A DNA stretch of 64,000 nt from Maritimibacter fusiformis (GTDB lineage: Bacteria > Pseudomonadota > Alphaproteobacteria > Rhodobacterales > Rhodobacteraceae): NCBI RefSeq assembly GCF_008086115.1, contig NZ_VSIY01000001.1, forward strand, positions 62,001 through 126,000. Direction: 5' to 3'. The stretch's first letter is position 1; each line of letters begins with the position of its first letter. Positions 55,973 through 57,747 of the stretch are shown piece by piece. Both the position numbers and the translations under genes were made by a program. Below the pieces are notes generated by a model. That model had not been told where the DNA came from. It worked only from the letters and a program-made list of their open reading frames with translations, and ran no database searches.

Positions 55973-56917
55973 ATGCGCGGTCGTGATTGGCAAGGGTTCG
56001 AGAATTACACCATGGATTGGGACAAGCTCAGAATATTTCACGCTGTGGCCGACGCCGGCAGCCTGACCCATGCCGGCGAAACGCTGAACCTCAGCCAATC
56101 GGCGGTATCGCGCCAGATTCGTTCGCTCGAGGAAAGCCTGAACGCCACCCTGTTCCACCGTCATGCGCGCGGACTGATTCTCACCGAGCAGGGCGAGCTT
56201 CTGTTCGACGCAAGCCGGGCGATGTCACAGCGGCTCGAGGCCGCCGAGGCGCGCATTCGCGATTCAAAGGAAGAGATCTTCGGCGAGCTGCGCGTCACCA
56301 CCACCACCGGCTTCGGCTCGCTCTGGCTGGCGCCGCGCCTGCCCAAGCTCTATGCCCAGCATCCCGACCTCAAGATCGACCTGATGCTCGAGGAACGCGT
56401 GCTCGACCTGCCGATGCGCGAGGCCGACGTGGCCATCCGCATGAAGGAACCCAGCCAGGCCGACCTGATCCGCAAGCGCCTGATGAGCGTCAACATGCGC
56501 CTTTATGCCATGCCCGCCTATCTCGACGAACACGGGCGTCCCTCGACCATGGCCGATCTTGCCCAGCACCGGCTGATCTGCATGAACACCACCTCGACCC
56601 AGGTCAGCGCCGGGTCGAGCTTCACCCAGGAAATCCTGACCCACGACATCCAGTCGATGCTGACGGTGAACAACTATTTCGGGGTGTTGCAGGCGGTTCT
56701 GAACGGGTTGGGCATCGGTGTCCTGCCCGACTACGTGGTGCAGGATTTTCCCGAGCTCGAGCGCGTGCTGCCACAGGATGAATCGATCGAGATCCCGGTG
56801 TTCCTGGCCTATCCCGAGGAATTGCGGCACTCCAAACGGGTGGCGGCGTTCCGCGATTTCGTCACCGAGGAAATCTTCGAGTTCCGCAAGAAGATGCAGC
56901 GGCTGGGGCTGCGCTGA
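55973..56917 (+). CDS. LysR-family transcriptional regulator
   Basis: DNA-binding regulator of 314 aa. The winged helix reads WDKLRIFHAVADAGSLTHAG, then ETLNLSQSAVSRQIRSLEES near residues 25-60, and a LysR effector domain follows (RVTTTTGFGSLWLAPRLPKL near residue 103). ATG 55973 has AAGG close upstream and adds 13 residues to the usual LysR N-terminus; ATG 56012 is an alternative with a poorer ribosome site. Divergent arrangement with the indolepyruvate oxidoreductase gene suggests it controls that gene. Inducer unknown. Confidence 0.88.
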   Translation: MRGRDWQGFENYTMDWDKLRIFHAVADAGSLTHAGETLNLSQSAVSRQIRSLEESLNATLFHRHARGLILTEQGELLFDASRAMSQRLEAAEARIRDSKEEIFGELRVTTTTGFGSLWLAPRLPKLYAQHPDLKIDLMLEERVLDLPMREADVAIRMKEPSQADLIRKRLMSVNMRLYAMPAYLDEHGRPSTMADLAQHRLICMNTTSTQVSAGSSFTQEILTHDIQSMLTVNNYFGVLQAVLNGLGIGVLPDYVVQDFPELERVLPQDESIEIPVFLAYPEELRHSKRVAAFRDFVTEEIFEFRKKMQRLGLR

Positions 56918-56969
56918 CCCGGGCGCTCAGCCATGCGTGTGGCGCATAGCCGCATTGCAGCAATTTCAC

Positions 56970-56998
56970 TTGAACCAGCGGCCCCCGCCTCTTAATTC
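56970..56998 (+). promoter_or_regulatory. Candidate promoter of the small RNA
   Basis: TTGAAC (56970-56975) and TAATTC (56993-56998) are separated by exactly 17 bp. They are followed within 6-8 nt by a purine start region and, 80 nt on, by a strong terminator, with no convincing reading frame between. Box quality is moderate. Confidence 0.45.
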
Positions 56999-57003
56999 AG
57001 GGT

Positions 57004-57084
57004 CAAAGGCGGCCCGGAGGAAACTTCGAGCGTCTTTTACCTCCCTGTTGGACTTAGGCCGGGCCTTGTGCCCGGCTTTTTTTT
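57004..57084 (+). ncRNA. Candidate small RNA with anti-Shine-Dalgarno-like motif
   Basis: Between lysR and the DUF302 gene a transcript of about 80 nt is predicted from the promoter-like boxes to the T-run. It contains GGAGGAAAC (57016-57024) that can pair with TTTTACCTCC (57035-57044), leaving a loop, and then CTGTTGGACTTA before the terminator stem. An ACCTCCC motif in a hairpin resembles the anti-SD loops of known alphaproteobacterial trans-acting small RNAs such as the CCUCCUCCC families. Alternatives are a 3'-UTR of lysR processed into an RNA. Not a tRNA or 6S RNA. Confidence 0.5.
57058..57084 (+). terminator. Strong rho-independent terminator
   Basis: GCCGGGC-CTTGT-GCCCGGC is a 7-bp perfect stem with a 5-nt loop, followed directly by eight T residues (57077-57084). 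It ends either the lysR message or the candidate small RNA. Confidence 0.9.
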
Positions 57085-57159
57085 GGCCGCGCGCCACAAG
57101 GCCGTTTGCCGCAGGATCGCATTCATGTATCGTTATTCCGGCATATCAGGGAGGGTTGC

Positions 57160-57747
57160 ATGACGTGGATCATCCGTCTGTTGGCGCTTGTCGGGGTTCT
57201 CGCGCTTGGCGCCGGTCTCTGGATCGGACCGGACCTGTGGCGCTACAAGACGGCGCTGGACGGGTTCGACGATCAGGCCTGGGCGACCTACAAGGGCCTT
57301 GCCGATCGGCTGGCCGACACCGGCAACGCCGCCGCCGCGACGGTCTGGACCGTCAAGGTCGCCGACGGGCTGAGCTTTGAAGAGGTCGACGAGTCGATCA
57401 AGGCTGTGGCGATCGACCGCAACATCCGCGGCGTCGGCGAACTGCCTCTGGGCGACCAGGTCGCCGCGATGAACGGCACGCCTTGGCGCAAGCTCAACAT
57501 CTATCTCTATTGCAACCCGCTGACCGCGGCCCGGATGATCGAGCATCACATCGCCTATGCCGCCTACCTGCCCTGCCGGGTGTCACTGGTCGAGGATGCG
57601 GCGGGCGATCTGTGGATAACCTCGCTCGACATGGACATGATGATCCACGGCGGCCGCGAATTGCCGCCCGAACTCAAGGCCGAGGCGCTGGCGGTCAAGG
57701 ACATCATCCTCGACATCATGAACCGCGCTGCCGAAGGCGATTTCTGA
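57160..57747 (+). CDS. DUF302-domain membrane-anchored or exported protein
   Basis: Protein of 195 aa. [20 protein letters not shown] is an N-terminal membrane anchor or signal sequence. The rest matches the DUF302 pattern in its second half ([60 protein letters not shown]). ATG 57160 has CAGGGAGGG upstream and lies 75 nt after the terminator, so it must have its own promoter. Function of DUF302 is unknown; it is often found in envelope or respiratory settings. Confidence 0.75.

Follow-up and report, generated by a model that had tools for sequence, protein, structure and literature searches.

Two small RNAs (sRNAs) described in Rhodobacter sphaeroides, SorY and SorX, have their core and terminator in common and differ in 5' part and origin. 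SorY (RF02651; formerly RSs1543), whose existence as an sRNA has been proven by experiment, is transcribed from a promoter and start site of its own (PMC6238624); it is RpoHI/RpoHII-dependent, binds Hfq and restricts the import of malate through takP (PMC5036791, PMC8307010, PMC6238624), whereas SorX (RF02784; formerly RSs2461) is cut from the 3' untranslated region (3' UTR) of an OmpR-type gene (PMC6238624). In this study we analysed a 64,000-nt stretch of the Maritimibacter fusiformis genome ("the window", whose numbering is used throughout), in which an initial annotation had proposed an independent, trans-acting sRNA of ~80 nt with an anti-Shine-Dalgarno core as a new candidate. Comparative genomics and a proven ortholog bear out such an sRNA, but not its novelty. 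We hold with high confidence that 57004-57084 encodes the SorY sRNA of M. fusiformis, which would be driven by RpoH and whose core would pair at the Shine-Dalgarno regions of mRNAs. Judged by its sequence, this RNA is an ortholog of the already described, stress-induced SorY, and hence not new.

The assignment is grounded in synteny and full-length homology. Under relaxed thresholds the Rfam SorY model matched the window segment at all of positions 1-83 (48.7 bits, E 4.8e-9), and our own covariance model, for which the window element was part of the training set, scored it at 68.7 bits. The best-scoring SorY genome, G075, has its match at 1,632,645-1,632,727, beginning 3 nt away from position 1,632,642, where SorY of R. 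sphaeroides has been reported to start (PMC6238624); from this coordinate, and from a TakP identical to PDB 2HZK, we infer that G075 is R. sphaeroides. Its gene order is indolepyruvate oxidoreductase (IOR, minus strand), lysR (plus strand), SorY and purL. This order recurs in the window, where an extra DUF302 gene separates the sRNA from purL, and the LysR encoded there is 76% identical to the one adjoining SorY in R. sphaeroides; because of this shared order, the element is taken to be a SorY ortholog. The RpoH-type promoter, the 5' hairpin, the core UACCUCCCUGUUGGACUU, the terminator and the length are also common to both, while the sequence of the 5' hairpin has diverged. Homology, synteny and the conservation of promoter, structure and core are supported directly by the present analysis. 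What weighs against the assignment is that 48.7 bits lies below the Rfam SorY gathering score of 111 bits, which is a curator's threshold and not a biological feature. This cut-off is reached by just one of 395 Rhodobacteraceae genomes, and SorY orthologs are therefore missed or labelled SorX.

With the curated Rfam thresholds, the single match in the whole window is indeed SorX (48.3 bits against a cut-off of 46.6). Read in this way, the element would be a SorX ortholog, a 3' UTR-derived sRNA cut by RNase E from the upstream mRNA; apart from passing the cut-off, the element shares ACCUCCCUGUUGGAC, the CCUCCCUGUUGGAC core and the terminator with SorX, and it does stand behind a regulator gene. 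However, this regulator is of the LysR type, and a better match, the SorX ortholog at C7:368118 (68.7 bits), sits at another locus of the same genome; there it follows an OmpR-type response regulator, the arrangement known from R. sphaeroides (PMC8625941). Neighbourhood, 5' hairpin and promoter of the window element are moreover those of SorY, and we reject the SorX identity, on synteny and the better match elsewhere, as very improbable. This corrects an annotation trap, in that the Rfam cut-offs would name the window RNA SorX and miss most SorY orthologs; what is of use here is that SorY proves to be conserved family-wide, which current Rfam thresholds conceal.

The promoter elements, the ACCTCCC motif and the terminator with eight T reported in the initial annotation are all found by direct reading, with TTGAAC at 56970-56975, a 17-nt spacer, TAATTC at 56993-56998 and ACCTCCC at 57039-57045. 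Of 111 distinct orthologs, 96 are preceded by a promoter of the form CTTG-N20-TANNT, where Markov shuffles lead one to expect 0.26. In R. sphaeroides the TTG at -35 is conserved in RpoHI/RpoHII elements, RpoHI favours C-37 and T-9, and RpoHII favours T-13 and needs A-12 (PMC3441632). The ortholog promoters carry C-37, TTG, T-13, A-12 and T-9, in agreement with that study, so that on its sequence the SorY promoter fits RpoHI/RpoHII rather than sigma-70. A sigma-70 scan found no promoter, and we set that candidate aside. Judging by how the promoter is spaced and where SorY starts in R. sphaeroides, transcription would begin at 57004-57006.

In the minimum-energy fold, the 5' hairpin (57005-57011 paired with 57031-57037) is followed by a linker with ACCUCCCUGUUGGACUU and then by the GC-rich terminator hairpin at 57056-57078, which a terminator scan also finds, with the eight T at 57077-57084 as a probable Hfq-binding tail. 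The initial annotation had paired GGAGG with CCUCC. While GGAGGAAAC does start at 57016, the GGAG lies inside the 5' hairpin and the CCUCC in the linker between the two hairpins; no such pair reaches a probability of 0.01 in the ensemble, forcing the pairing costs 4.6 kcal/mol (-27.5 against -32.1), and GGAGG occurs in the 5' part of one of 113 orthologs, so this pairing has to be given up. The conserved core (Table 1) consists of the anti-Shine-Dalgarno CCUCCCU and the extension GUUGGAC, and is predicted to be the mRNA-binding seed. A variable stem and loop next to a nearly frozen 17-nt core has the appearance of a structured scaffold that leaves its seed exposed. As the initial annotation had it, there is no credible reading frame inside: we saw no conserved coding frame in the element, and the overlapping open reading frames (ORFs) are mechanical.

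How widely is this arrangement kept? The same promoter spacing, core and hairpins are seen in ~110 orthologs, and among 80 named Rhodobacteraceae loci retrieved via the LysR protein, 72 have the exact 14-nt core CCTCCCTGTTGGAC at most 600 nt downstream of lysR. The covariance model, built from 24 orthologs, recovered 67 of the 70 lysR loci that had been held out (E < 1e-7); one of the three missed loci, L096, stops at lysR. Within the held-out sequences, changes on both sides were seen in 14 of the 14 pairs of the 5' helix, and covariation of the 5' hairpin amounted to 0.421, compared with 0.155 for shuffled and at most 0.115 for slid controls; being fitted to the model, this alignment is biased towards it, but the controls are exceeded by a wide margin. 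Owing to variation in loop length, the 5' stem did not show up when all orthologs were aligned plainly with MAFFT/RNAalifold; it was recovered with a hand-picked ortholog subset and the covariance model. Stem and motif are thus conserved in relatives, where their absence would have spoken against the candidate. A keyword check of a Ruegeria pomeroyi sRNA study did not find the SorY locus there. On these comparisons, one locus has kept SorY together with its RpoH-type promoter and seed throughout the Rhodobacteraceae, so that SorY targets could now be tested across the whole family.

This conservation also bears on whether the element might encode no sRNA of its own and merely be the 3' UTR and terminator of lysR. 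It does share its strand with lysR, whose stop lies 86 nt upstream, and could double as the lysR terminator. Yet a promoter conserved at fixed spacing, a covarying 5' hairpin, a core whose conservation far exceeds what a terminator needs, and an ortholog that is a proven sRNA all make such an origin highly unlikely. Furthermore, in Maritimibacter dapengensis (L093, 3483-4784) an ORF of ~370 aa separates lysR from SorY, which still adjoins purL; SorY is therefore not a fixed lysR 3' UTR.

What, then, would SorY repress in M. fusiformis? By analogy with R. sphaeroides, RpoHI/RpoHII would drive the window SorY and Hfq would assist its base-pairing to Shine-Dalgarno regions. The mostly single-stranded core could pair with mRNAs having a Shine-Dalgarno sequence like GUCCAACA-GGGAGG, and such pairing would block ribosome binding or speed decay. 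A likely target would be the mRNA of a TakP-kind receptor of a tripartite ATP-independent periplasmic (TRAP) transporter, in which case organic acid uptake, and with it tricarboxylic acid (TCA) flux and NADH supply, would drop under stress. We infer that M. fusiformis transcribes SorY from the start site given above and induces it under stress, and that the RNA binds Hfq and regulates targets there.

Predicted pairing was compared with a control in which the part of the seed outside ACCUCCC was shuffled, the figure given being the fraction of shuffles that pair as well. The R. sphaeroides takP, located by its identity to PDB 2HZK, has a leader, GTCCACAAGGGAGG, that is predicted to pair with the SorY core at and upstream of the Shine-Dalgarno sequence at -22.8 kcal/mol (0.02), and five of the nine takP genes of at least 60% identity, that of R. 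sphaeroides among them, reach 0.04 or less. For the nearest TakP homolog in the window's genome (37% identity), GTTCAACTGGGAGG is predicted to form 6+7 bp around one mismatch at -22.6 kcal/mol (0.015); among window 60-mers, 0.47% attain such an energy. Without proving it, the modelled pairing favours takP-like transporters as SorY targets. Three observations pull the other way: a homolog of only 37% identity is perhaps not the true ortholog, special pairing is lacking in most of the distant TakP homologs, and several other starts with a strong Shine-Dalgarno sequence pair comparably by energy. A genome-wide search for the extended 14-nt complement of the seed returned only the sRNA itself, SorX, and two-mismatch sites near background (13 sites in total, against 6 for the reversed control).

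A target closer at hand would be the adjacent DUF302 gene, whose Shine-Dalgarno sequence CAGGGAGG (57147-57154) is perfectly complementary, over 8 of 8 bp, to CCUCCCUG of the seed. That the gene is a target at all is speculative, and that repressing it is the main role of SorY here is quite unlikely: this genome has many AGGGAGG sequences preceding an ATG (51 sites), pairing beyond the Shine-Dalgarno sequence is no better than for shuffled seeds (0.154), for which reason we dismissed it as a special local target, and a DUF302 gene was not found between SorY and purL in R. sphaeroides or in the 80 named relatives. Returning to takP-like transporters, we tentatively suggest, at somewhat less than an even chance, that SorY is a core stress regulator throughout the Rhodobacteraceae, including probable non-phototrophs, in which one nearly frozen 17-nt seed would repress keto-acid/dicarboxylate uptake when RpoH is active, rather than a Rhodobacter specialty for photooxidative stress.

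Table 1. Features at the SorY locus of the window, with the evidence for each.
Feature	Position	Strand	Evidence
SorY ortholog, predicted sRNA of ~80 nt	57004..57084	+	Rfam SorY full-length 48.7 bits, synteny, own model
RpoHI/RpoHII-type promoter, C-TTGAAC, 17-nt spacer, TAATTC	56969..56998	+	Sequence, ortholog conservation, PMC3441632 elements
5' hairpin, variable in sequence, kept by covariation	57005..57037	+	Fold; held-out covariation
Conserved core ACCTCCCTGTTGGACTT, predicted seed	57039..57055	+	Near-invariant alignment columns
Intrinsic terminator, eight T	57056..57084	+	Fold, terminator scan, ortholog model
LysR-family regulator gene, probable start codon 56012; syntenic marker of the SorY locus	55973..56917	+	Pfam HTH_1, LysR_substrate
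DUF302 gene between SorY and purL	57160..57747	+	Pfam DUF302

Other RNAs resemble the window sRNA more loosely. The mmgR/suhB family (RF00519) has a similar C/U-rich anti-Shine-Dalgarno stretch and terminator, but its match of 25.8 bits is below its cut-off and its locus is a different one. The CcsR1-4 'cuckoo' RNAs of alphaproteobacteria likewise combine a C/U-rich anti-Shine-Dalgarno stretch with a terminator; these are a processed cluster behind ccaF1, a locus that differs from that of the window sRNA. Outside the window, the same genome holds a third SorX/SorY-like element (L003, G000:C1:7406-7476) with CCTCCCTGTCAGACTGG and a terminator, which at 32.4 bits falls below the cut-offs and is possibly an undescribed relative.
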